From Candidatus Lokiarchaeota archaeon (GTDB lineage: Archaea > Asgardarchaeota > Thorarchaeia > Thorarchaeales > Thorarchaeaceae): a stretch of 64,000 bases of DNA. Both the position numbers and the translations under genes were made by a program. Positions 8,144 through 54,079 of this stretch are shown piece by piece. The stretch lies in NCBI GenBank assembly GCA_014730275.1, contig WJIL01000117.1, forward strand, positions 1 to 64,000, given 5' to 3'. The notes under the pieces are model-generated. The model did not search any database and was not told the DNA's origin. It saw nothing but the letters and a program-made list of their open reading frames with translations. The first letter of the stretch is position 1; the number at the start of each line of letters is the position of its first letter.

Positions 8144-8887
8144 CTAGAGCTTGGGCTCAAAAGATCTTATGTTCCTTATCAGAGCCTCCGTTGTTTCTAG
8201 CTCGGATATGCACAAAGGAACATGAATGCTGTCTGCGATTCTGACCGCCAAAGGATCTAATTCTTCTACTCCTTGGATGACAACAACTGCAGGTTTCACT
8301 GCTACCGATGTACCTATTTGGCTTGCCTTTATGGCTACCATCGGAGATCTCCCAGTAGAGACATTGGTAAGAATAGCTGCTCTCTGCGTAGTGCCACCAT
8401 ACAAACGGAGTAATTGTTTGGGAGTAAGATTAACTATTGCCTTTACGCTATCCAAAGCTGTGTACCCATATATATCACGATCGAGTAGGTTGCTATGAGT
8501 TAAGATTTTACAATCCAATTGATTCACTAATAGTCTGGCGGGAATAGGAAAACCAAATTCACGACTGTCTAGAAGAGCATCAGAAGCAATCTCTGGAGCT
8601 AAGAGCTTTTTAAAAGCTAATGCAATCCGGCTACCATTTTCTGCATCAATTTCAAGGAGACCCTCAACGAATCTGCGTATGGTGTCAACACGCGGAGATT
8701 TTCGCCGCCCACTTTCATAATCACTAATGACTGATGGGGAAACATCCAGATGTTCTGCAAGGCTTTTCTGGGAAATCTGAAATTTCTCTCGCCACCGTTT
8801 CATTACTGCACCAGGGTTATTTTCAGCTAGACATATTTCCCCGGCCATTGCTTCAGCCAATCGATGCAGTGAGTCTCCCGGTTCCAT
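8144..8887 (-). CDS. XRE-family transcriptional regulator with C-terminal effector-like domain
   Basis: Residues 30-85 form a lambda-repressor-type helix-turn-helix: MKRWREKFQISQKSLAEHL followed by SPSVISDYESGRRKSPRV. The remaining 160 residues form a second domain with strands such as AAILTNVSTGRSPMVAIKAS and VAVKPAVVVIQGVEELDP, resembling the archaeal COG1709 group of predicted regulators. Such a layout suggests a ligand-sensing repressor or activator, but no ligand can be named. It precedes the HD phosphohydrolase by 15 bp, and it is divergent from the GPN-loop GTPase gene, so it could control either side. Length 247 residues; ATG start at 8887. Confidence 0.82.
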   Translation of the reverse strand: MEPGDSLHRLAEAMAGEICLAENNPGAVMKRWREKFQISQKSLAEHLDVSPSVISDYESGRRKSPRVDTIRRFVEGLLEIDAENGSRIALAFKKLLAPEIASDALLDSREFGFPIPARLLVNQLDCKILTHSNLLDRDIYGYTALDSVKAIVNLTPKQLLRLYGGTTQRAAILTNVSTGRSPMVAIKASQIGTSVAVKPAVVVIQGVEELDPLAVRIADSIHVPLCISELETTEALIRNIRSFEPKL

Positions 8888-13951: not shown

Positions 13952-16024
13952 TCAGCCCTTTATTCGCTCAATTTTGCCTTCGCTGGGACTATAAATAAGC
14001 CCCTCAGCGAGAAGTTTCTCTATTACCTCAACCGCTCGCTCTCGTGAAACTCCCATTTCTGAGACTCGTTGAAGTAACGCTTCTTCGCTAACAGTTGATG
14101 AATCATCCGATTCTAATTCTTTCATTGCATCGAGAATCTTGTCGGAAGAACTCCGCTGTGCGGCACTCATTGTTGAAACAAGTTTGTCGATATCAATTCT
14201 CCCCGTTCCATCCAGAGCTACCATGCGAAGTGATTCCTCCATGAGTCGGACGGCGGCCTGAGCGTCTTCTTTTGTTACTTCGGATCTCAAGCCCATTCTT
14301 GCTCTGGCCTCGGCCAGACGAACGAGTGATTCCAACTGACGTGCTGTAATTGGGACCGGGGCGCCTCCACCTTCTGCACTCTTTCGGAGACCAACGTAAA
14401 AATCCTCAATAACTTCCGCAGCCTCAGCTGTCAATCGCGGGATTACATATCTATTTGCATAGCCAATATATTTGCGAAGAAACTCTGGATCGATAGGAGG
14501 GACTCCTTCTTGGCTTTTTGTTTGCTTAAGTTGGTGCATCCCCAAAATGAACTGTGCAAGTTCGCGGTCCTTTTCTGCCTCAACTCGGTCTATGAGGATC
14601 CACAATAAGTCAAACCTCGATAGGATAGTGAATGGCAACTTGATGTTATCTTGAACCGAACGCTGGGGTTCATATCTACCAAGAGAAGGATTTGCGGCAG
14701 CCAGTATTGAGGTCCGGGCATTCAGAGTTGCGACAATACCAGCTTTAGCGATACTTACAGTATGCTGCTCCATCGCCTCGTGAATAGCAGTCCTATCATT
14801 CGGGTCCATTTTGTCAAACTCATCAATACAAGCAATGCCTTGATCTGCTAGTACCAAGGCCCCTGCTTCCAATGTCATAGCACCGGTGTCAGTATCATGA
14901 ACAACGGCAGCTGTGAGTCCAGCTGCGCTTGTACCCTTTCCTGATGTATAGAGACTTCTTGATGCCAAGCTTGAAACGAATTTCAGTATCTGGCTCTTAC
15001 CCGTACCAGGGTCACCAATCATCAGAATATTTGATTTGCCTCTTAAACGGGTTCCATCAGGCAGGGTCTTACCAACACCACCAAATAGGAGGAGGGCTAT
15101 TGATTCTTTGATGCGTTCATGTCCATGAATAGAAGGAGCAATTGAGGCATAGATCCTCTCGTGAACATATGGGTCTTCAGCCAATTCCCTAATTCGTTTT
15201 TCATCTTCTTCAGTGATATCTACTTGTTCATATTCTTTCTCTGCGATTTCGATACCAACAGCATCAATATTGACATTGAATGTTGCCAGACGGCCTCGGC
15301 GTCTGGAAAAGTCAGGAGAAGTCTGAAGAATTCCCGTTATCCGCACCAAATCCCCGGGACGCGATAAATCTACGATATCACCTTCAAGAACAACATCCAC
15401 CGACCGTGGCATTTGACCCGGTGGTAGTTCCTCGGGGGATTCTTGGATTCGGACTTTTTGCCAATCCATGAAACGGGATTTCTTCGGAAGCAGTCTCATC
15501 GAGGTTTTCTTTCCGCATACAGGGCAAATTGGAGGTTCGGTATAACGTCCGTCTTCTTGCGGCTGGGGAATTTCTTCATCACATAATCGGCATTTGAAGA
15601 CAGCGTCAACTAGAAGGGGCTTAACTTCACTTGCACGCATCATAAGACCGCTAATCTGTATGAGACGACCAATATGTTTCGATCGCAAAGCCCTAAGAGC
15701 AACGTGCTCTGGATAGTTTACAATTCGCGCTCGTATTGTTCCTTCAGGGAGTCTTTGTACATAATCCGGGTCTTCAACTCTCAGAACCGATATTAGTCCA
15801 TTGTTTGCTGTTTCTAAGAAGGAAGTAGGGTTCTCAGCAGCTTCGACCATGAACACATTATCGAAAGTTGAAAGGTCCTCAAAATCAATGCTTAGGCTTG
15901 TTTCATCATTGATGGACATCTGTTGAATCTGGCGCCAGTATATTAAGTTCCCGTGTTCATTCTTGTATGTTCGTAGAAACTCTTCGAAGCGCTCTTGGAT
16001 ACCATCTTTGGATGTTGCCATCAA
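13952..16024 (-). CDS. mcm: Replicative DNA helicase MCM
   Basis: MCM is the hexameric replicative helicase. The 690-residue protein has the N-terminal domain with a zinc knuckle (CRLC near residue 143 and CPVC near 165), then the AAA+ core with Walker A GDPGTGKSQ near 337, Walker B CIDEFDKM near 397, and an Arg finger SRFD near 453, followed by a C-terminal winged helix. Length and order are normal for archaea. It lies 96 bp downstream of gins23 on the same strand, a linkage also seen in Sulfolobus, and has its own TATA-like promoter in that spacer. Confidence 0.97.
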   Translation of the reverse strand: MMATSKDGIQERFEEFLRTYKNEHGNLIYWRQIQQMSINDETSLSIDFEDLSTFDNVFMVEAAENPTSFLETANNGLISVLRVEDPDYVQRLPEGTIRARIVNYPEHVALRALRSKHIGRLIQISGLMMRASEVKPLLVDAVFKCRLCDEEIPQPQEDGRYTEPPICPVCGKKTSMRLLPKKSRFMDWQKVRIQESPEELPPGQMPRSVDVVLEGDIVDLSRPGDLVRITGILQTSPDFSRRRGRLATFNVNIDAVGIEIAEKEYEQVDITEEDEKRIRELAEDPYVHERIYASIAPSIHGHERIKESIALLLFGGVGKTLPDGTRLRGKSNILMIGDPGTGKSQILKFVSSLASRSLYTSGKGTSAAGLTAAVVHDTDTGAMTLEAGALVLADQGIACIDEFDKMDPNDRTAIHEAMEQHTVSIAKAGIVATLNARTSILAAANPSLGRYEPQRSVQDNIKLPFTILSRFDLLWILIDRVEAEKDRELAQFILGMHQLKQTKSQEGVPPIDPEFLRKYIGYANRYVIPRLTAEAAEVIEDFYVGLRKSAEGGGAPVPITARQLESLVRLAEARARMGLRSEVTKEDAQAAVRLMEESLRMVALDGTGRIDIDKLVSTMSAAQRSSSDKILDAMKELESDDSSTVSEEALLQRVSEMGVSRERAVEVIEKLLAEGLIYSPSEGKIERIKG

Positions 16025-16103
16025 TTCTCACCTCGATAGATAATATGTAAGATGTGCGGCAAGGACTTACAACTGCTCCGCATTTTGCTAGTCCCGTGTT
16101 TGT

Positions 16104-16113
16104 GTATTTAAGC
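16104..16113 (-). promoter_or_regulatory. TATA-type promoter of mcm
   Basis: GCTTAAATAC on the minus strand, about 84 bp upstream of the mcm start codon and 7 bp after the gins23 stop. It would let mcm be transcribed independently of gins23. Confidence 0.45.
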
Positions 16114-16120
16114 ACCCGTG

Positions 16121-16696
16121 TTAGGCGCCCCACTCTCGAACAGCAGTCCTCCAAGAGGACAATAGTTCGACTAATTCTTCACAAAGCCACCTTTCTTCCA
16201 TAGTCATGTATTCTCGCTTATCCTGATAAGCACCAGATTTGGCTACCCGAATTATTTTCGAGAGCCGTGTCTCTACCAATGAAGGAATCATACGCTGCAT
16301 TTTCTCGATTTCGTCAAAACTACGCGGATCTAGTGATGTTTTATCGCTTTGGAGACGTGTCATCTTGCGTTCAAGTGCTGCATAGAGATGAGGGTGAAAA
16401 GATTGAAGTTTATGAGGGTGTCTATCTTCCGCGCGATATTGATTCTGAAGACGTCTAAGGGATTCCAATGCATCCTCTGGCGCAATGTCAACGATATCAT
16501 TAGAATCAAGTTTCTCAATAATCCAGTTGGGAAGACGGGCTTCTTCGCCGGCTCTAAAAGGGCCAATCGTCCAATCTCCAATTGTTAGTTCTTCGAAATC
16601 TTGGCGGAAAATACACTTACGCTTCGCGTTGAGAAAAAGCATCAAATATCTTTGAACCATCTTTCGAGGAATATCATTCTCTGATATCAAATACAA
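16121..16696 (-). CDS. gins23: GINS complex subunit, Gins23 type
   Basis: GINS joins MCM and the Cdc45/RecJ-like protein in the archaeal CMG-type helicase. The 191-residue product has the small beta domain first (residues 35-70, with IGPFRAGEEARLPNWIIEKL, the typical GINS 'P-W-xx-L' signature) and the helical domain after it (residues 75-190). This B-then-A order identifies the Psf2/Psf3-like Gins23 class rather than Gins51. Synteny with mcm supports the call. The spacer of 274 bp upstream to the divergent rfcS holds a TATA-like ACTTAAAGGC on the minus strand at 16782-16791 and nothing else that I can name. Confidence 0.82.
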   Translation of the reverse strand: MYLISENDIPRKMVQRYLMLFLNAKRKCIFRQDFEELTIGDWTIGPFRAGEEARLPNWIIEKLDSNDIVDIAPEDALESLRRLQNQYRAEDRHPHKLQSFHPHLYAALERKMTRLQSDKTSLDPRSFDEIEKMQRMIPSLVETRLSKIIRVAKSGAYQDKREYMTMEERWLCEELVELLSSWRTAVREWGA

Positions 16697-16970
16697 GCCT
16701 CCATTTTCCTAGTATTGAGATTACCTAGAGGGACAAAAGCATTCCCATAATATCGAGGGATAAAGCCATCGTTCTCACGATGCCTTTAAGTTGGGTGAAC
16801 TAACCACACGTATAGGTGGAACCAACACCCTCGGGGTGAATTTCTATTGGCAGAACAATAAAACAAAAAGCAACTGTCGAATTACCGAACAGGAGAAAAT
16901 GTACGAATACATATTGGTATGACATTAACATCTGCAAAATTGGTTTCACCAATAAGGAGACAACGTAATA

Positions 16971-17933
16971 ATGGAATTGGATCTCTGGACCGAAAAGTAC
17001 CGCCCAAAAACACTTTCCGAAATCATAGGACAAGAATCAGTTGTACAAAGATTAATGCGATTTGTGGAAAATGGGGCTGTGCCTCATTGTCTTTTCGCGG
17101 GACCACCAGGAACCAGCAAAACAACAGCTGGGATGGCAATGGCTAGAGATTTGTTCGGGGATACCTTTGGACGCAATTTCATGGAATTGAACGCAAGTGA
17201 TGAAAGAGGAATCGATGTAGTGAGAAATCAAATCAAAAGCTTTGCCAGATCCATACCTTCTGGTGATGCACCTTTCAAGATTCTAGTTCTGGATGAGGCG
17301 GACCATCTGACAGGAGATGCACAACATGCGCTTAGACGCACAATGGAATCATACGCTAGTTCATGCAGAATGATTTTGATTTGCAACTACTCCAGTAGAA
17401 TAATACCACCCATTCAATCCAGATGTGCAGTTTTCAAGTTCTCGCCCTTGGATGACGAAGCCATCGTAGAAAGATTGGAATACATAGCAGATGCGGAGAA
17501 TGTGAGTACAGACAAACAAGGAATTGAAGCAATACTGTATCTAGCAAATGGAGATATGCGTGCCGCCATTAATCTTCTGCAAGCAGCTTCTTCTACTGGC
17601 GAGAAAGTTACTGGTCCTGTTGTTTACAGTATATCTGGTCGTGCCAGTCCAAAGGAAGTTCGTGGTCTTCTCAAATCCTCCTCAGAGGGGAAATATGAAG
17701 AAGCAATTACTTCTATGAAGAGTCTAATTTATGAGAATGGTGTATCACCAATAGATTTGATTAGACAGATTCATCGAGAACTTCTCGGTCTAGATATGTC
17801 CAAGAAGAGGACTATGTCAACATTAGAGAAAGCAGCAGAGGCTGAATTTCGTATTTCGGAAGGTGCAAGTGGTGAAATTCAACTTGCAGCTTTGTTAGCG
17901 TACATAGGATTGGAGAATAATACTGATGAGTAA
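16971..17933 (+). CDS. rfcS: Replication factor C small subunit
   Basis: RFC-S forms most of the clamp loader that places PCNA on DNA. The 320-residue AAA+ protein starts with LDLWTEKYRPKTLSEIIGQ, has a Walker A at residues 45-52, Walker B LVLDEADHLT, and the RFC-box Arg finger SRC near residue 152, then the lid and collar domains. One oddity is the Walker A: it reads GPPGTSKT, with Ser in place of the normally invariant Gly before the catalytic Lys. The 3' end overlaps the rfcL start by 8 bp, so the two subunits are translationally coupled. Confidence 0.96.
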   Translation: MELDLWTEKYRPKTLSEIIGQESVVQRLMRFVENGAVPHCLFAGPPGTSKTTAGMAMARDLFGDTFGRNFMELNASDERGIDVVRNQIKSFARSIPSGDAPFKILVLDEADHLTGDAQHALRRTMESYASSCRMILICNYSSRIIPPIQSRCAVFKFSPLDDEAIVERLEYIADAENVSTDKQGIEAILYLANGDMRAAINLLQAASSTGEKVTGPVVYSISGRASPKEVRGLLKSSSEGKYEEAITSMKSLIYENGVSPIDLIRQIHRELLGLDMSKKRTMSTLEKAAEAEFRISEGASGEIQLAALLAYIGLENNTDE

Positions 17934-19149
17934 GGAGAGTCTACCTTGGCCAGAAATACATAGGCCAAAAACAGCTGAGAATCTAGTAGGCAACAGTAGA
18001 AGTATTCAAGAGCTGAGAAGGTGGATTCTTTCATGGAGGAACAACATACCTAGGAAAAGAGGGGCTCTACTAATAGGACCACCTGGTGTGGGTAAGACAG
18101 CTGCAGTGGGAGCTTTAGCCAATGACCTAAACATGGAATTAGTAGAATTTAATGCCAGTGATAAAAGAAACAAATCCAGCATAGAGAAACAGGTATGGAG
18201 AGCAGCTACCCAGCAAACTATTGATGGGAGACGACGGCTTCTCTTGCTGGACGAGGTAGATGGTCTTTCAGGTACTAGCGACAGAGGTGGTATTGGTGCA
18301 ATTAAGAAAATCCTAGATCTGGCTGTCCATCCTATAGTTATGACAGCCAACAATCCCAAGAGTCGAAAGCTCAAACGACTGAGGAAAAAATCCCTCGTCT
18401 TGCATTTCAAGCCTATTGAGGCGGAAGATATGTTGATAGTCCTTGATCGCATAGCCTCCGCACACGAAGGAGAGATAAACAAAGGAACAATCAAGAGAAT
18501 CTTGGAAAATTCTGAGGGGGATCTTCGTGCTGCGATTTCAGACCTTGAAACTGTGATGAAGGCAGGCTCAGTAGTTGGAATGAATGATGTTTCTCCAAGA
18601 AACGTAAGAAGGGATGTGGAAGATACACTAAGACGGCTATTCATGAGTACTGATACGAAATCTGCAAGACGAGTTGTATCTCAAGGGGATGTAAATTATG
18701 ACGATTTGTTGCTTTGGCTTGAGGAGAATCTTCATCTCCATCTTAGAAAGAAACATGAACTAGAGGCAGGACTGGATGCAGTTTCGAATGCGGACCTGTT
18801 CTTAGGAAGAATAATGAGAGATCAAGAGTGGAAACTATTATCCTACGTGTATGATTTTCTTTCGGCAGGAATGGCAACAAGTCGAACGGAGACACCATTT
18901 CGTCGGGTGGAATACTCAAGGCCCTCTTGGCCACTTATGGTCTGGAAAGGTAACAGAAGTCAGAAGAAGTATTCGGATATTCTTTCCCGCGTATCGAATC
19001 TATCAAGAGTCTCTACACGAAGAGTAATGAAAACTCATGGAGAAGCCATAAGTACGATTCTCAAAAGAAATCCAAAGCTAGCAAAAGAATTCTCTGAATG
19101 GTTGAATGTGAAAAGTACCAATATTAGGAAAATGGCAAATCGTCATTGA
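17926..19149 (+). CDS. rfcL: Replication factor C large subunit
   Basis: RFC-L is the fifth subunit of the archaeal clamp loader. The 407-residue product opens with LPWPEIHRPKTAENLVGN, has a normal Walker A GPPGVGKT near residue 49 and Walker B LLLLDEVDGLS near 108. It lacks the SRC finger of the small subunit, as usual for RFC-L. It is at the short end for the family; I see no C-terminal PIP-box (QxxLxxFF), since the tail is ...KSTNIRKMANRH. The start overlaps rfcS by 8 bp; its 3' end overlaps the convergent truA by 26 bp. Confidence 0.92.
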   Translation: MSKESLPWPEIHRPKTAENLVGNSRSIQELRRWILSWRNNIPRKRGALLIGPPGVGKTAAVGALANDLNMELVEFNASDKRNKSSIEKQVWRAATQQTIDGRRRLLLLDEVDGLSGTSDRGGIGAIKKILDLAVHPIVMTANNPKSRKLKRLRKKSLVLHFKPIEAEDMLIVLDRIASAHEGEINKGTIKRILENSEGDLRAAISDLETVMKAGSVVGMNDVSPRNVRRDVEDTLRRLFMSTDTKSARRVVSQGDVNYDDLLLWLEENLHLHLRKKHELEAGLDAVSNADLFLGRIMRDQEWKLLSYVYDFLSAGMATSRTETPFRRVEYSRPSWPLMVWKGNRSQKKYSDILSRVSNLSRVSTRRVMKTHGEAISTILKRNPKLAKEFSEWLNVKSTNIRKMANRH

Positions 19150-19933
19150 GGCTATTCAGAGTTCTGGTTACCCGTTCAAGCATATCACTGTAATCGCGAA
19201 GTTTTCCCCGAATTCGATATAAAGCGCTAATATTCGATTTCATTTCCAGCGGTACCACCGATTCCATCAGAACAAGGCATTCTGGAGGGGCAGGATGGAT
19301 TCCCCCCGAAATATCATTTCCGGATAATAGTCCACCAACAATTGAAGCGTTCATCTTATGCATTCCAACTTCAATCAATACACTAACAATCTTACGAACC
19401 ATCTTCCATAGAAAACTAGTTCCATATATATCAGTCACAAAGAGTCCATTTTGGTTTCTGACAGCAATATTCAAGATGGTTGCGACATTCGTGCGATATG
19501 GGTCGGGCTTAGCGAAACCGGAGAAATCATGAGTTCCCACTAACTGCTGAGCAACCTGCTGCACCGTTGTCACATCAAGTCCTTCACTGGTTGGCCAATA
19601 ATATCTATAGTGCCGAAATAGAATATCATATCGCACATTGAAATTCGGGGGCGCTTCAGCAGCTGCCCAGAGGACTATATCATCAGGCAGGATTCTATTC
19701 ACTTCTTCGATTTCCAATTTTTTCTTCGTGTTAACAAGGCCAATTTGGCCTAGGCTATGAACGCCACGATCTGTTCTCCCAGCGAGCTGTATTGTCTTCG
19801 CTGTGTGTTCTTCGCCACTCCAATCGGAGAAAGCACAAATGAGCTCTCCTTGAATTGTTGCCAAATCAGGTTGTATCTGTGATCCATGGTAGCGGCTTCC
19901 CAAGTAGAAAATACGTAGTAAATATGAGGTCAT
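19124..19933 (-). CDS. truA: tRNA pseudouridine synthase A
   Basis: TruA makes pseudouridine at positions 38-40 in tRNA anticodon arms. The catalytic Asp lies in AGRTDRGVHSLGQ near residue 54, and YLGSRYHGSQIQP at the N-terminus is family-typical. I chose ATG 19933 (269 residues) because AGGTGA sits 7 nt upstream of it and because the protein then begins MTSYLLRIFYLG; the upstream ATG at 19960 would overlap the ArsR-like gene by 13 bp and adds an atypical tail. It is third in a minus-strand run after cdc6 and the regulator, and overlaps the convergent rfcL 3' end. Confidence 0.93.
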   Translation of the reverse strand: MTSYLLRIFYLGSRYHGSQIQPDLATIQGELICAFSDWSGEEHTAKTIQLAGRTDRGVHSLGQIGLVNTKKKLEIEEVNRILPDDIVLWAAAEAPPNFNVRYDILFRHYRYYWPTSEGLDVTTVQQVAQQLVGTHDFSGFAKPDPYRTNVATILNIAVRNQNGLFVTDIYGTSFLWKMVRKIVSVLIEVGMHKMNASIVGGLLSGNDISGGIHPAPPECLVLMESVVPLEMKSNISALYRIRGKLRDYSDMLERVTRTLNSLNDDLPFS

Positions 19934-19947
19934 GAAGTATTCACCTA

Positions 19948-20232
19948 CTAGGATTGCCAAAGGTCAATAAGATTCTTGATAGACCGAGCGCGGAGGTCTT
20001 CGATTCTGTACCGGTAGATTTTGATTCTACCGAAAACCTTCTCTTCTACTAAATCAGCATCCATGAGGGCTTCTAAATGGGATTTCGTTGTGCTATGATT
20101 CAAGCTGACTCTCTTACAGAGTTCAGAAATGTTCAATTCTTGAGAGAGAGCAAGTTCTTTGATGATTTTCATTCTACCCTTGGATGAAAATACCTCTTCA
20201 ATCGGGGGATTGGACTCGTGATCAGTAGTCAT
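19948..20232 (-). CDS. ArsR-like winged-helix transcriptional regulator
   Basis: This 94-residue protein is a single winged helix-turn-helix: GRMKIIKELALSQELNISELCKRVSLNHSTTKSHLEALMDADLVEE is the classical helix pattern, followed by a wing, KVFGRIKIYRYR. It has no metal-binding Cys cluster, so it is unlikely to be a metal sensor. It lies between cdc6 (18 bp upstream) and truA (15 bp downstream of its stop to the chosen start), so the three genes look like one transcript. AGGAGG overlapping the cdc6 stop is 14 nt from the chosen ATG, a longer spacing than usual. Its targets are unknown. Confidence 0.85.
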   Translation of the reverse strand: MTTDHESNPPIEEVFSSKGRMKIIKELALSQELNISELCKRVSLNHSTTKSHLEALMDADLVEEKVFGRIKIYRYRIEDLRARSIKNLIDLWQS

Positions 20233-20250
20233 AATAGAAGCATAAGCCTC

Positions 20251-21456
20251 CTATTCATTCAAGAAGTCGAGCAAAAATGCTTCCAGCATTCCTGCGGGTA
20301 CGTCTGAGAGACCAATAAGCGTTGTCTGCCCCCTTTGCCCTTCACCGGATCGTTTTGTGTCAATCACACCATGTGCATTCAAATCCTGAACCCATTCCCA
20401 AACCTGAGTGTGTGCGCGCGAATCTTCACCATATTCTTCACAGACAGTTCGATACATCTCTTCCACTTCACCCATTGTTACATATGCACTTCGTACTTCT
20501 TTCAGTTGGCGTGCAGCAGCCAACAACAGAAGCTTATTTTGTAGGGGCAGAGTTGAGAAAACCTCCTTTCGTAGCTCCGGGTGTGTATCAGCTTTAGCTT
20601 TTCGTGCAAAATCAGGTATTACGACATCAGAGCGCTCTGTATCAGCTTGTTTGCCAGCACGCCAAAGAATCTCTATAGCGTATCTCGCATCACCACGTTC
20701 AGAAGCTATGTCAGAAATGACCTGAAGGGTTTCTTCCATTACAGTATTATCTTTGAAAGCCATTTCTGAGCGTTGATTAATGATGTCGTAAAGTGCTTCT
20801 GAGTCATATTTCTCAAAGCGAAGAATATTGCGCTGTAAGGTGCTCAGTGTACTAGAATCGAATGCAGATTCATCTAGAGGTATATCTCGCCCAATACCAA
20901 TCATTGAAAGCCTTTGGGGAGAATTGAGGCGATCATCATTCAACCGCGTCAAATCGTAGACTATGCTTCCACCCTTTTGTGTTATGAAATAGTCAAGCTC
21001 GTCAAGGATAAGCAGAAGGTATCTATCTTCAGAATCAAGAACATCCATTATGAGTTGAAGTAGCTCCTCGGGCGAATGACCTCTCCGAGGAAATTTTGGT
21101 TTGAATTCCTTGAGGATTCGCAGATAAACTAAGTACTTGCTCTTGTTTACTCTACAGTTTACATGTATTTTGTGTAGGTGAATGTTTCTTCTTCTCGCAG
21201 CACGAATCATTTGCTCCGCAAAGCGTTTTGCAACAGCTGTTTTGCCAGTACCAACAGGACCTTCAATTATGAATTTGTGGCTGGTCTTTCCAGGGGAGGT
21301 TATCAGCGTTTTGAAGCTCCGAGCTAGTGTCCGAAGCTCATTCTCTCGATGAGGTAAAGTTTCTGGCACATAGTCTATTGATAGATATTGCTCCGATTTG
21401 AATACTGTATGTCTGCTGAGTTCATCTTCAACAAAATCTACCGGCATTACATTCAA
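20251..21456 (-). CDS. cdc6: Orc1/Cdc6 replication initiator
   Basis: Orc1/Cdc6 binds origin recognition boxes and loads MCM. The 401-residue protein has Walker A GPVGTGKTAVAKRF near residue 66, Walker B LLLILDELDYF near 147, sensor 1 LSMIGIGRD near 185 and a C-terminal winged-helix domain from about residue 300. RYAIEILWRAGKQA carries the sensor 2 Arg. Length is normal. The nearest origin-box sequence seen is about 17 kb away (38.9 kb), not next to this gene. The TATA element lies 24 bp before the ATG, so the mRNA is probably leaderless. Confidence 0.95.
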   Translation of the reverse strand: MNVMPVDFVEDELSRHTVFKSEQYLSIDYVPETLPHRENELRTLARSFKTLITSPGKTSHKFIIEGPVGTGKTAVAKRFAEQMIRAARRRNIHLHKIHVNCRVNKSKYLVYLRILKEFKPKFPRRGHSPEELLQLIMDVLDSEDRYLLLILDELDYFITQKGGSIVYDLTRLNDDRLNSPQRLSMIGIGRDIPLDESAFDSSTLSTLQRNILRFEKYDSEALYDIINQRSEMAFKDNTVMEETLQVISDIASERGDARYAIEILWRAGKQADTERSDVVIPDFARKAKADTHPELRKEVFSTLPLQNKLLLLAAARQLKEVRSAYVTMGEVEEMYRTVCEEYGEDSRAHTQVWEWVQDLNAHGVIDTKRSGEGQRGQTTLIGLSDVPAGMLEAFLLDFLNE

Positions 21457-36907: not shown

Positions 36908-38725
36908 GTGTGTGGTATTGTAGGTGTCGTCCAAAAGCGTGGAGAAGTTGCACCTTTTCTTCATCAGGCATTAAAACGACTCGAGTATAGAGGATATGAT
37001 TCAGTAGGTTTGACAACCATCTACGAAGGAAAGCTTCACACTAAGAAGGATAAGGGAAAAATAGACGAGGTTCACAAACGACTGAATCTCGATGATTTGC
37101 CAGGAAAGATGGGAATAGGCCATACTAGATGGGCAACTCATGGCGTTCCTTCTCTTGTAAACGCACACCCACATTTTGATTGTGATAACAGAGTTGCTGT
37201 TGTGCACAATGGTGTAATAGATAATTTCATGAAGTTAAGAAAAGAATTGAAGAAAAACCACGAATTCGAATCGGAAACAGACACAGAAGTAATTCCTCAC
37301 ATGATTGAAGACCTACTTGAACAGGGTTACGATTTGAAAGAAGCTGTTGCTGAAGTCACGACAAGAATAGATGGCACATATGCAATAGTAGCTATGAGAG
37401 TAGAAGAACCAAATCGTATAGTTTGCACAAGAGATGGGAATCCCCTGGTGATTGGGAAGGGAGAAGATGCATCATATGTCTCATCAGATATTCCGGCTTT
37501 TCTTCCTATGACAAGAGACATGATTCTTCTGTTGGACGGAGAAATTGCGACAATTACTCAACAGGATATTGAAATTGAGAAACTCTTTGATGGTTCTAAA
37601 GTTGAAAGGGATGCTGTAAAAATCAGCTGGACTGCTGACCAAGCCGAAAAAGCGGGTTTTCCTCATTTTATGCTGAAGGAAATTCATGAGCAGCCGGATG
37701 CCGTACGGAACACTCTCAGACTCCGCAACGAAACAATTGAGAAGGCCGCAGAGATGATTTTCAATTCTGAGCGGATTTATGTAATAGCGATGGGAACTTC
37801 AGGTCATGCAGGAATGGCCTGTAGACATATGTTTGCATCGATATCAGAAATCGTTCCGGTTTTTGAGCTAGCAAGCGATTTTGAAGACACAATATATGAT
37901 ACCTTGTCTGAAGACGATTTAGTACTAGCAATTACTCAGTCAGGTGAAACTACTGATACGGTGAGCGCAGCTAAGTATGCGAAGAAATTTGGTTCAACTG
38001 TTATTGCAGTGACCAATGTTGTAGGTAGCTCAATCACGAGGGTAGCAGATCACACAATAATCACACAAGCGGGACCGGAAATTGGAGTGGCTGCTACTAA
38101 AACATTCATGGTCCAATTAACTGCGTTGGCCCAGATTGCTATTGAGCTAGGTCGTTTTTCCGGGTCAAAAAAGGAACTCATTGAGAGAAAGGAAAAATCC
38201 CTTGAGGAAATCCCTGAGGTAATATCCACGGTAATAGCTACAGAAGAAGAAAAAGCAAGGAGCGTAGCTGGAGTATATTATGATGTTCCGAGTCTTCTAT
38301 TCTTAGGGCGTGGTATATCTATAGCAACAGCTCAAGAAGGTGCACTCAAACTAAAGGAAATTGCGTATAATCATGCAGAAGCCTATAGTGCAGGGGAATC
38401 CAAACATGGTCCAATAGCATTGGTTGAAGAAGGATACCCAGTCATTTTTGTTGCCCCCAAAGACCAAACAAGGGAAAGGCTTGTTGGAAATATCATGGAA
38501 ATGAAAGCGAGGGGAGCTTCTATCATCTCAGTGATTGAAAAAGGAGATGAAGAATTGAAGGACCTTTCGGATCATGTTTTCGAAGTTCCTCAAGGCATTG
38601 AGCCTGAGTTTTCAGTAATGCCTTTTGTGATACCGTTGCAGCTATTCAGCTACTACATGGCTACAAGAAAGGGATATGATCCAGATAAACCGCGTAATCT
38701 GGCCAAATCTGTAACAGTACTGTGA
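36908..38725 (+). CDS. glmS: Glutamine:fructose-6-phosphate aminotransferase
   Basis: GlmS makes glucosamine-6-phosphate, the entry to amino-sugar and glycan synthesis. The 605-residue protein begins MCGIVGVVQKRG with nucleophile Cys2 after removal of Met, has the glutaminase motifs GIGHTRWATHG near residue 69 and DNRVAVVHNGVI near 94, and two SIS sugar isomerase domains (about 285-420 and 455-595) with TSGHAGMA and QSGETTDT. It ends with the typical KPRNLAKSVTV tail. The start is GTG. It ends 1 bp before a 518-bp spacer containing the origin candidate. Abundant glycosylated surface proteins in this window would need its product. Confidence 0.96.
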   Translation: MCGIVGVVQKRGEVAPFLHQALKRLEYRGYDSVGLTTIYEGKLHTKKDKGKIDEVHKRLNLDDLPGKMGIGHTRWATHGVPSLVNAHPHFDCDNRVAVVHNGVIDNFMKLRKELKKNHEFESETDTEVIPHMIEDLLEQGYDLKEAVAEVTTRIDGTYAIVAMRVEEPNRIVCTRDGNPLVIGKGEDASYVSSDIPAFLPMTRDMILLLDGEIATITQQDIEIEKLFDGSKVERDAVKISWTADQAEKAGFPHFMLKEIHEQPDAVRNTLRLRNETIEKAAEMIFNSERIYVIAMGTSGHAGMACRHMFASISEIVPVFELASDFEDTIYDTLSEDDLVLAITQSGETTDTVSAAKYAKKFGSTVIAVTNVVGSSITRVADHTIITQAGPEIGVAATKTFMVQLTALAQIAIELGRFSGSKKELIERKEKSLEEIPEVISTVIATEEEKARSVAGVYYDVPSLLFLGRGISIATAQEGALKLKEIAYNHAEAYSAGESKHGPIALVEEGYPVIFVAPKDQTRERLVGNIMEMKARGASIISVIEKGDEELKDLSDHVFEVPQGIEPEFSVMPFVIPLQLFSYYMATRKGYDPDKPRNLAKSVTVL

Positions 38726-38780
38726 GAAATAACATCGTAGTATGGCGGGAATATGTACACACTTCACACTATCTACACAT

Positions 38781-39194
38781 ATTCACATTGATTTACTGTG
38801 AATGGCGCCAAGAATGTGAATACAATTTTTCTAACAAAGTGGAAACAGTTCTAATATCAAAATAAAGAGCCCATAACTTTGATTACCCATGTGAATAAGG
38901 CCACCCCTTCGTTTCCACTGGAGATTGGCTACCAGAGTTATGAAGCATTATTTCAAGTATTCACAAATCCGATAACAAAGTGAACACACGAAAAATTGGA
39001 GAGATTTTCTTAAAACGTATTTTAGTAGTTATAGGGTTCATTTTTACCCAAAAAAGGTCTATAATGACTTATTTTATTCTTTCAATGGAGACAGAAAGTT
39101 TTTTGGTAGTATATTGCGCTATGGAGCTACTATCGAGGTATATATGATTCACATACTCACACTTATTTGCAGAGTCAATTGTAAAGATGTGAAT
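38781..39194. repeat. Array of seven TGTGAAT/ATTCACA 7-mers
   Basis: Exact copies start at 38781, 38797, 38815, 38890, 38959, 39147 and 39188, four as TGTGAAT and three as ATTCACA; a one-mismatch copy (CTTCACA) lies at 38762. The first two form an inverted pair with a 9-bp spacer. By chance a 7-mer is expected well below one time in this length. Likely protein-binding sites, either origin iterons or operators for the adjacent 206-residue regulator. Confidence 0.7.
38904..38923 (-). promoter_or_regulatory. Origin recognition box (ORB)
   Basis: The minus strand reads CTCCAGTGGAAACGAAGGGG, which fits the conserved archaeal ORB (core CCAGTGGAAAC, then an A/G-rich spacer and the G-string) recognised by Orc1/Cdc6. 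Confidence 0.8.
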
Positions 39195-39243
39195 GGCTTC
39201 CTAGCAGGAGCAACATCGACAAAAATGGAGCTGTGGAATTATC

Positions 39244-39864
39244 TTGGATGAGAGCGATAGAACACCCTATGTATACGAATTCACATACAGCTCTGGTCCA
39301 GGTTCAAGAGAGATTTTTGAATGCAAGTATGTTCAACCGGATGAAGCTCTTAATAGATTCAAGAAGATTTTGAGACTTACTGAGAATCCCTTTGATTTCA
39401 AGATTCTAGTACATGATGAGGCCACAGGAGAAGAATCGAGTTTCCAAATCCGAGGTTCTGTGGATGAAATGTTTGAGAAATTCCGGGTGTTTCTTGAGAC
39501 TAGCACAGGTTATGAATTTCACGAAGAGGAAGCAGTGCAAGAATCGATACTAGATGAAATTCATTTCGATTCCATGAGCAACTTCGAAAAGATGCAGATG
39601 GTAATCTATGCATCGTTCAAACATGGGAAATTCTCTTCATTGGACGTTGCAGAAATCTATGAAACTACTTTTGGCGAAAAAATGCCAAAAAGCACTGCCT
39701 CAACATACCTTGCAAGAATGTGGGACGATGGGGAAGGAGATGTAGAAAGGTATGGAAACAGGACAGGGTACACATATAGACTCAAGACTGAACTGAATCA
39801 GGTTCAAAGCGATATCAAACGAGCTGAAAAAATCCTGTCGACATTCCAGATACAAAGAGAGTGA
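39244..39864 (+). CDS. Unknown protein with C-terminal winged helix-turn-helix
   Basis: I do not recognise this 206-residue protein. The N-terminal half (residues 5-85) is beta-rich with alternating charged residues; residues 115-180 look like a winged helix (FEKMQMVIYASFKHGKFSSLDVAEIYETTFGEKMPKSTASTYLARMW, then GNRTGYTYRL as the wing), which is followed by a short coiled tail. The start is TTG at 39244 (MDESDRTPY) with a weak GGAG. It directly follows the ORB/TGTGAAT spacer, so it could bind those sites as an autoregulator or origin-linked factor. Neither role is shown by the sequence alone. Confidence 0.6.
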   Translation: MDESDRTPYVYEFTYSSGPGSREIFECKYVQPDEALNRFKKILRLTENPFDFKILVHDEATGEESSFQIRGSVDEMFEKFRVFLETSTGYEFHEEEAVQESILDEIHFDSMSNFEKMQMVIYASFKHGKFSSLDVAEIYETTFGEKMPKSTASTYLARMWDDGEGDVERYGNRTGYTYRLKTELNQVQSDIKRAEKILSTFQIQRE

Positions 39865-42949: not shown

Positions 42950-43045
42950 AAGAATATAAAGTTGTTACACGTGTTCCACTTTTCTCTATGACCCCCTTGT
43001 TTCATGTAGAAAAAATAAGAAGAAATAAGAGGGTCTATGGAAAGG

Positions 43046-43056
43046 TATATATATAA
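43046..43056 (+). promoter_or_regulatory. Strong TATA box upstream of iorA
   Basis: TATATATATAA, preceded by purine-rich BRE-like GGAAAGG. It is about 226 bp upstream of the iorA TTG, predicting an unusually long leader of about 200 nt. Confidence 0.55.
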
Positions 43057-43130
43057 GTTAGTCTATATTCATTTTATCTCCATTTTTCTAAAGGATAGAC
43101 AACTAGCTTTTCAGCTTCTCCATTTTTCAT

Positions 43131-43150
43131 TTCCACTGGAAATAGAGGGG
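43131..43150 (+). promoter_or_regulatory. ORB-like palindromic site
   Basis: TTCCACTGGAAATAGAGGGG matches 15 of 20 positions of the ORB at 38904, including the TGGAAA core and GGGG tail. The part ATTTCCACTGGAAAT (43129-43143) is a perfect palindrome about a central C, so an operator is an alternative. Confidence 0.45.
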
Positions 43151-43281
43151 AGTTACTCATGTATTACAGATAATACAACATTAGAACACGTGTAACAAAT
43201 CTTCATTCACCACAAGACTGATAGCGTAACTTAATTTTTCCTGAAGTTGAAGTAGCCTTGGCCCAGATCGGAGGCAAATAA

Positions 43282-53104: not shown

Positions 53105-54079
53105 TTACCTGACCTCCTTGAGAATTTCAGAATATGCATCAGCTACGGTTTCCGCAATATCAACAGTAACGGTTGGATCTCCTGATTTTCTTAGATTCTC
53201 TGCTGCGACTTGTTGACATGCTCTTGCTAACATTCTAAGATCTCTCGGATTTCCATTCGCCGCCTCGTTTATTATCTCGATAGATGTTTCTTCAAATGGT
53301 TCTAGTTGGAAATCATCAGAATTGAACTGGTCGATATCTCCTCTTGCATAAGCAAGTCTTCTGCCGATGAACTCGCGTGCTTTACTTCCATCCAGTGGGG
53401 GCACATCTAAAGGTTCTGTTCGGTTTGCTATCTGGGGAAGAAAAGAAAGCATGGCATTCCAGTATAGTTTGGTTCCTGACATTATCAGGGTCACAATTGG
53501 TTCATCAAGTCCTTCAGGATGATCATCAACCATCTCCTCTGTTGGCAGGTCTGCCAAGAAACGAAGCTTGTGAAAAGCCGCCTCTTGGTTATCTGCTACA
53601 TCTTCGATGAAAAGCGCGGTACGACAGTCTTCTTCAATGTACCTTCGCAAGCTTTCCTTTGCTACAGCTTCAATAATCTGAGTTGACTCCCACGATCTTC
53701 GATACTTGATTCTAAGCGAATCAGCAATGGCTGCTGACATCTGCTTTTCATATAGGCCCGTCATGCCCACATATCCTGTGACGAATCTGTTCCCTCGCCT
53801 ATCCGCAAGAGTAGGTAGGTCTCTTAAGGCTAAGAGCATAAGCGTACTTTTTCCGGATCCTACTGGTCCTCTCAAAAATATGTGTCTTTCATTGATTAGC
53901 ACTATATCTACTAGTGTATCAAGAAAATCCGGATGCTCGACATAGAGACGAGCATCTGGCATTTTGAAACCTCGAAACGGCGAAAACCTCATTCCAAGCT
54001 TCTCTTCCCAAGCTCTCAAGGCTTCCTTTCTCGTATTGAAATGTCTAATCAATGCACTTTCGTGAACTGCAATCGTCAT
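53105..54079 (-). CDS. AAA-type (Orc1/Cdc6- or TniB-like) ATPase
   Basis: This 324-residue protein is a AAA ATPase. Walker A is RGPVGSGKSTLM at residues 70-81, Walker B TALFIEDVADN at 154-164, sensor 1 LIMSGTKLYWN near 203 and a lid signature NGNPRDLRMLARACQQ near 277. The fold is closest to Orc1/Cdc6, TniB/IstB or STAND-like loaders, not the ParA deviant Walker type. No winged helix follows, so it is not a standard replication initiator. It is first in an operon with the RHH-like protein, and a GTATTA element lies 19 bp upstream of its start codon. A role in DNA segregation, loading or mobile-element handling is possible. Confidence 0.75.
   Translation of the reverse strand: MTIAVHESALIRHFNTRKEALRAWEEKLGMRFSPFRGFKMPDARLYVEHPDFLDTLVDIVLINERHIFLRGPVGSGKSTLMLLALRDLPTLADRRGNRFVTGYVGMTGLYEKQMSAAIADSLRIKYRRSWESTQIIEAVAKESLRRYIEEDCRTALFIEDVADNQEAAFHKLRFLADLPTEEMVDDHPEGLDEPIVTLIMSGTKLYWNAMLSFLPQIANRTEPLDVPPLDGSKAREFIGRRLAYARGDIDQFNSDDFQLEPFEETSIEIINEAANGNPRDLRMLARACQQVAAENLRKSGDPTVTVDIAETVADAYSEILKEVR

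Follow-up and report, generated by a model that had tools for sequence, protein, structure and literature searches.

A candidate ORB-type replication origin of new layout in Thorarchaeia, split in two and linked to a conserved family of predicted winged-helix proteins

Among the described archaeal replication origins, oriC1 of Sulfolobus has the textbook ORB-DUE-ORB layout (PMC12141716), and the origins of Euryarchaeota (Thermococcales, haloarchaea and Methanosarcinales) have orc1-1 beside or near DP1 (PMC2643942). The ORB motif common to archaea reads TCCA[CG]T[TG]GAAA[TC][GA]AAGGGGT (Ori-Finder 2; PMC4164010). In the open-access literature searched, no mapped or described case of a replication origin was found for Asgard archaea or Thorarchaeia. 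Asgard archaea are related to the ancestors of eukaryotes, and no known prokaryotes stand closer to eukaryotes.

The locus discussed here lies in a stretch of 64,000 nucleotides (the window) on contig C117; the assembly, from a Thorarchaeon, amounts to 3.64 Mb in 151 contigs. The nearest relatives are MAGs of Candidatus Thorarchaeota, which places the source among the Asgard archaea. The spacer at 38726–39243, named element A, is bordered by glmS (36908–38725) and by the gene of a 206-residue protein, p206 (39244–39864, plus strand). A preliminary description had proposed this spacer as a replication-origin candidate, and the proposal is supported by unique ORBs, by an architecture common to many genera and by synteny with ORB clusters linked to orc1-1. 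Judging from these sequence comparisons, it is highly probable that the p206 locus forms part of this Thorarchaeon's chromosomal replication origin. The origin very probably has two halves, the spacer and element B, which lies 4 kb away beyond the p206 gene, and the two elements look like a single oriC split by two lysine-metabolism genes. The locus is read as an ORB-type oriC of new layout, accompanied by an unrecognised origin-linked protein family.

Element A by itself has one conserved ORB. This full-length, near-perfect copy with a G-string, CTCCAGTGGAAACGAAGGGG, is found on the minus strand at 38904–38923, where it had been described before, fits the common archaeal motif (PMC4164010) and occurs at the same position in most Thorarchaeia. 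A search of the 3.64-Mb assembly with TCCNNTGGAAACNNAGGGG returned this ORB as the single exact match (reversed control, 0), and with up to one mismatch allowed only one further site appeared, at 43132–43150 in the same window, so that the two best ORBs of the assembly stand 4.2 kb apart. ORB-consensus sequences are thus rare elsewhere in the genome, which speaks for an origin; the equal matches across the genome that the preliminary description had named as counter-evidence were looked for and not found. The second, degenerate box proposed for the spacer fared less well. The exact 9-mer AGTGGAAAC does occur at 38838–38846 (plus strand), 64 bp from the ORB, and it stands there without the remainder of an ORB. 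Since it is not conserved, a congeneric sister genome already having GCGGAAAT in its place, it was dropped as a functional second ORB and is probably due to chance. The claim of an AT-rich block holds: the spacer has 35% GC against 42%, and by computed duplex stability 39018–39077 ranks third among the least stable 60-mers of the 64-kb window; the 100-mer of the same rank also falls in the spacer. Adjacency to glmS was discarded as irrelevant because element A stays with p206 in other genera, where about 3 kb separates glmS from p206. At two loci of other Thorarchaeia genera (L119 and L127) two genes absent from the window's genus stand between glmS and the array; judged by eye, they encode class-V aminotransferase-like and nucleotidyltransferase-like proteins.

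The preliminary description had overlooked a further feature of element A, an array of eight TGTGAAT boxes in about 500 bp of the spacer, the last just inside p206; simulated windows (n = 200) contained at most three TGTGAAT per 520 bp. The boxes include the dyad TTCACA-N9-TGTGAA (boxes t1 and t2, 38782–38802), which is found at one site in the genome, followed by t3 (38815–38821, plus strand), t4 (38890–38896, plus strand), which abuts the ORB, and a second inverted pair, TTCACA/GTGAA (t5 and t6, 38960–38983). Beyond an AT-rich segment of fixed length and poor conservation (38985–39147, 31% GC) follow the conserved ATTCACATACTCACACTTATTTG block (t7, 39147–39171) and t8 (39188–39194, plus strand), which adjoins the start of the p206 gene. 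Across 32 Thorarchaeia sequences, the start-to-start spacings are 15, 18, 75 (74–76), 14, 55–56, 19, 169 (168–170) and about 41 bp; those of t2 to t3 (18 bp), t4 to the ORB (14 bp) and t5 to t6 (19 bp) are the same in 32 of 32, and that of t6 to t7 is 169 ± 1 bp. The only distance that varies freely in these sequences is the last gap, up to the p206 start codon. Spacing is thus locked across about 370 bp, whereas the sequence between the boxes diverges, its identity to the window being 0.36–0.64 overall and about 0.38 for the 169-bp segment. Alignment does not account for the fixed spacing, because the positions of the boxes were located without one. This element architecture is conserved in 12 genera, and upstream of p206 in the genomes of the family the boxes recur, usually with a recognisable ORB. 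Among 59 genomes, the dyad was found at 25 sites at p206-linked loci (24 Thorarchaeia genomes and G040, from another Asgard family) and at no more than 16 sites elsewhere, a few of which may be origin fragments.

Inverted ORBs around an AT-rich element, the classical core, stand not in the spacer but 4 kb away in element B (42964–43196), an ORB-DUE-ORB core with flanking palindromes. The left ORB (42992–43010, minus strand) is degenerate in the window's genus, with four mismatches in the window, and near consensus in most other genera; the right ORB, TCCACTGGAAATAGAGGGG (43132–43150, plus strand), has one mismatch. Between them lies a predicted duplex unwinding element (43011–43131) with 27% GC and a TATA-like box. 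By computed stability, 43046–43105 within this predicted element is the least stable 60-mer of the 64-kb window, and the least stable 100-mer likewise falls in or around element B. On the outside, the left palindromic box GTTACACGTGTTC (42964–42976; GAACACGTGTTC in relatives) is matched by an exact reverse complement, GAACACGTGTAAC, on the right (43184–43196). Of 12 aligned relatives, most show a recognisable inverted ORB pair with GAACACGTGTTC-type palindromes, and in relatives where both ORBs were recognised their starts are usually 142–149 bp apart, with about 143 bp as the usual distance. Based on this layout and on computed stability, initiation is likely to occur at B rather than at A.

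The palindrome GAACACGTGTTC was rejected as an origin-only signal, since several more sites exist per genome. Up to 16 copies were counted per Thorarchaeia genome, with almost none in a reversed control (examples in the source genome are C60:34495, C68:21849, C82:38768 and C97:17910), and it is probably the site of a regulator. Further, many Thorarchaeia have a second conserved locus (L201–L211) with one ORB about 130–150 bp from such a palindrome. Its representatives in the source genome are C68:9789–9807 and C68:9938–9949 (L219:4790 and 4939), with a promoter-like TATA sequence in between, directly before a gene of unknown function. Two readings of this locus are open to choice, a second origin and a promoter under the control of Orc1.

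Comparison with other lineages places p206 beside initiator genes. Seven loci from further Asgard families contain a p206 homologue (in L133 detected by genome search, not tblastn) together with ORBs and with the gene of an Orc1-1-type Cdc6, followed by DP1. The order there is compact, namely HypF / ORB(-) ORB(+) / p206 / ORB(+) / orc1-1 / DP1, with variations. L134, with HypF, ORB(-), ORB(+), p206(-), ORB(+), orc1-1 and DP1, comes close to Thorarchaeia in order and orientation; Thorarchaeia differ from it in having IorAB inserted between HypF and the ORB pair and the two lysine-metabolism genes between the ORB pair and p206, and in lacking orc1-1 and DP1 at this place. In one rearranged Thorarchaeia locus (L121, from G005), LysDH, SDH and p206 stand on one side of element A, and an ORB adjoining IorA lies about 3 kb away on the other. 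Among 20 further Asgard loci, 14 have orc1-1 within about 10 kb of p206 (21 of 27 for the non-Thorarchaeia Asgard loci overall, with ORBs present in nearly every such case), and 14 have an ORB with up to two mismatches near p206; at this threshold the background is eight in 1.2 Mb of chromosome sampled with its origins. The same linkage appears in 11 mostly bathyarchaeal loci, which come from Bathyarchaeota and related MAGs (L294 is labelled Jordarchaeia, L293 Heimdallarchaeota, L291 Culexarchaeum and L290 Crenarchaeota): orc1-1 is within about 10 kb of p206 in nine, and ORBs are near p206 in all 11. As the bathyarchaeal ORBs are mostly two-mismatch matches, this evidence rests on their clustering. 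GC skew was sampled on two chromosomes from relatives of the source, a complete one from Thorarchaeia (G022) and one of 1.4 Mb from an Asgard archaeon (G038), over 31% of one and 28% of the other; it was weak, made no clean turn at the locus and weighs neither for nor against an origin there.

In Thorarchaeia, the initiator genes themselves are found elsewhere. The Cdc6 encoded beside DP1 on contig C70 is, by its sequence, of the Orc1-1 type: its best match is S. solfataricus Cdc6-1 (2qby_A, E = 5.8e-101), and the two have a similar wing, GRYGRTKKI. No ORBs with up to three mismatches occur near this gene. Its Thorarchaeia counterparts are likewise not adjacent to the p206 locus, being 55–64 kb away in several genomes and about 1 Mb away in G022; an initiator gene next to the origin is the usual arrangement for ORB-type origins and not a defining one. 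Gene order across these groups indicates that orc1-1 and DP1 have left an ancestral position beside the origin in Thorarchaeia, and the origin has no initiator gene beside it because the pair, now on C70, moved away. The only orc1/cdc6 gene of the window, correctly reported before as 17 kb off, is the Cdc6 at 20251–21456, a different paralog that is closest to 1fnn. This paralog 2 lies about 17–39 kb from p206 in relatives with both on one contig, and it forms part of a replication island (13952–21456) with MCM, GINS, RFC small, RFC large and TruA. The S. solfataricus cdc6-2 island resembles this MCM-GINS-RFC island (PMC2643942). An AAA+ ATPase encoded at 53105–54079 has a weak, sub-threshold match to the Pfam family ORC-CDC6-like (PF24389, E 8e-4).

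The p206 gene is a single-copy gene found in 29 of the 37 genomes of the family. Of 147 Asgard genomes, 84 have a homologue by a profile built for it, almost all of them one copy only, as do 13 of the 15 genomes from which the other loci were taken. The predicted structure starts with an alpha/beta domain, continues with a winged helix and closes with a long helix at the C-terminus (mean pLDDT 79, pTM 0.46, the arrangement of the domains being uncertain). No Pfam or NCBIfam family scored above its curated cut-off for the p206 of the window, 19 members of the family gave only scattered weak matches to these collections, and no significant match to PDB sequences was obtained. A fold search with Foldseek yielded generic winged helices and nothing at E <= 0.001; C-terminal domains of Cdt1 were among the matches (E ~0.004–0.09), mixed with MarR, RosR and BlaI. 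Outside Thorarchaeia, TGTGAA occurs in the 700 bp upstream of p206 at 5.1 per kb, as compared with 0.69 per kb in the remainder of the same loci, which is a 7.4-fold enrichment. That the motif is enriched upstream of p206 in these lineages too suggests binding by p206, and from such sequence associations we consider it reasonably likely that p206 binds TGTGAAT. In several Asgard loci (L263–L267), TGTGAA is scarce or absent upstream of p206. At some origins, GTTAAC or TGTTAA repeats replace TGTGAA, as at L130 (upstream of p206 at 8254, with eight copies of GTTAAC), L294, L284 and L265, and these repeats perhaps reflect an altered specificity of p206.

In the working proposed for the origin, Orc1-1 encoded on contig C70 would bind the one ORB of A and, in B, both members of the inverted pair. 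Loading of MCM and opening of the DNA would take place at B between the ORBs, where the duplex is weakest. Dimers of p206 would occupy the TGTGAAT boxes in A in a fixed helical phase around the ORB, and p206 and A together would form a rigid nucleoprotein array that regulates initiation, either assisting or restraining Orc1-1. The array may also regulate the p206 gene, as t7 and t8 stand just before it. Points that count against this scheme are the distance of orc1-1 from the locus in Thorarchaeia, the degenerate left ORB of B in the window's genus and the Asgard loci in which p206 hardly has TGTGAA before it. A broader and more tentative proposal, to which we give slightly less than an even chance, is that p206 is an ancient, previously unrecognised origin-binding protein of Asgard archaea and Bathyarchaeia that recognises TGTGAA arrays and cooperates with Orc1-1, either to initiate replication or to control its initiation. 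Its role in Thorarchaeia would be to organise a spacing-locked scaffold at an origin that was pulled apart by inserted genes and whose initiator gene moved away.

The strongest competing explanation is that element A serves solely to regulate p206, a transcription factor that would control its own gene via TGTGAAT operators; the ORB would then mark regulation by Orc1, and replication would start elsewhere or only at B. The array indeed stops shortly before p206, TGTGAA enrichment is a general feature of the regions upstream of p206 homologues, and the winged helix is weakly similar to repressor families such as BlaI/MecI. Further, the second Thorarchaeia locus has a single ORB and a palindrome in an apparent promoter, so that ORBs may double as regulatory sites. 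However, about 370 bp of fixed spacing is rarely needed by an operator region, a full ORB stands inside the array, and in other Asgard families and Bathyarchaeia p206 borders ORB clusters by orc1-1 and DP1. Autoregulation and origin function are compatible; we regard the purely regulatory explanation as improbable. More doubtful still is that element A is a centromere-like or partition site (a parS-type array) bound by p206, near but distinct from the origin. Partition loci are often close to origins, and the short inverted boxes, their fixed spacing and a small winged-helix/HTH gene next door resemble such loci. However, no ParA or SegA-type ATPase was found beside p206 among the neighbouring genes examined, ORBs occur within and beside the array, and the linkage to orc1-1 extends across Asgard archaea and Bathyarchaeia. 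A structured non-coding RNA, in which compensatory change in helices can keep the length constant while the sequence diverges, is close to refuted as the source of the fixed spacing, since the spacer had no Rfam match at E <= 1, the RNAalifold consensus reached -14.3 kcal/mol over 411 columns and showed no covariation (term 0.08), and the predicted pairs connect the DNA repeat boxes themselves. A column-shuffle test for RNA structure gave extreme z-scores, solely because shuffling breaks up the repeat boxes, and was discarded.

Regarding the preferred reading as a split oriC, the predicted boundaries, the boxes and the candidate second binding protein make the firing of an Asgard origin directly testable. 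A single-copy winged-helix family tied to origins in two large groups of archaea qualifies as a candidate for a missing factor of initiation or its control. Base-pair-exact spacing over about 370 bp with drifting DNA in between is, moreover, a strong constraint that any account has to explain.

Of the known systems, oriC1 of Sulfolobus (ORB3-DUE-ORB2) has in common with the Thorarchaeia locus the ORB consensus, an Orc1-1-type initiator and an AT-rich element bracketed by inverted ORBs at a scale of 130–160 bp. It also has an extra short motif with a small non-initiator binder, ucm and UBP, for which TGTGAAT and the candidate p206 would be the counterparts. The Thorarchaeia locus differs in that no initiator gene adjoins it, its origin parts are spread over 4.4 kb and its extra motif forms a fixed-spaced array of TGTGAAT boxes; UBP, which by its published description is saddle-shaped and contacts DNA by beta-hairpins, is set apart from p206 with its predicted winged helix. 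The oriC-orc1-DP1 clusters of Euryarchaeota have the orc1-1/DP1 pairing in common with the other Asgard archaea and Bathyarchaeia studied here, whereas the p206 gene is an extra neighbour and the orc1-DP1 pair is gone from the origin in Thorarchaeia. With the WhiP/Cdt1-like initiators of Sulfolobus oriC3, too, a small winged-helix protein is encoded beside the origin. Different are the make-up of p206, one predicted winged helix with an alpha/beta domain, and the presence of ORBs and orc1-1 at the origins studied here; domains from the C-terminus of Cdt1 are among the weak fold matches of p206, none of them significant. Finally, in bacterial oriC, DnaA boxes stand at conserved spacing with variable DNA between them. 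The likeness to the Thorarchaeia locus consists in many short boxes at conserved spacing and is an analogy only, not membership, as the locus has no DnaA and uses other boxes and another initiator.
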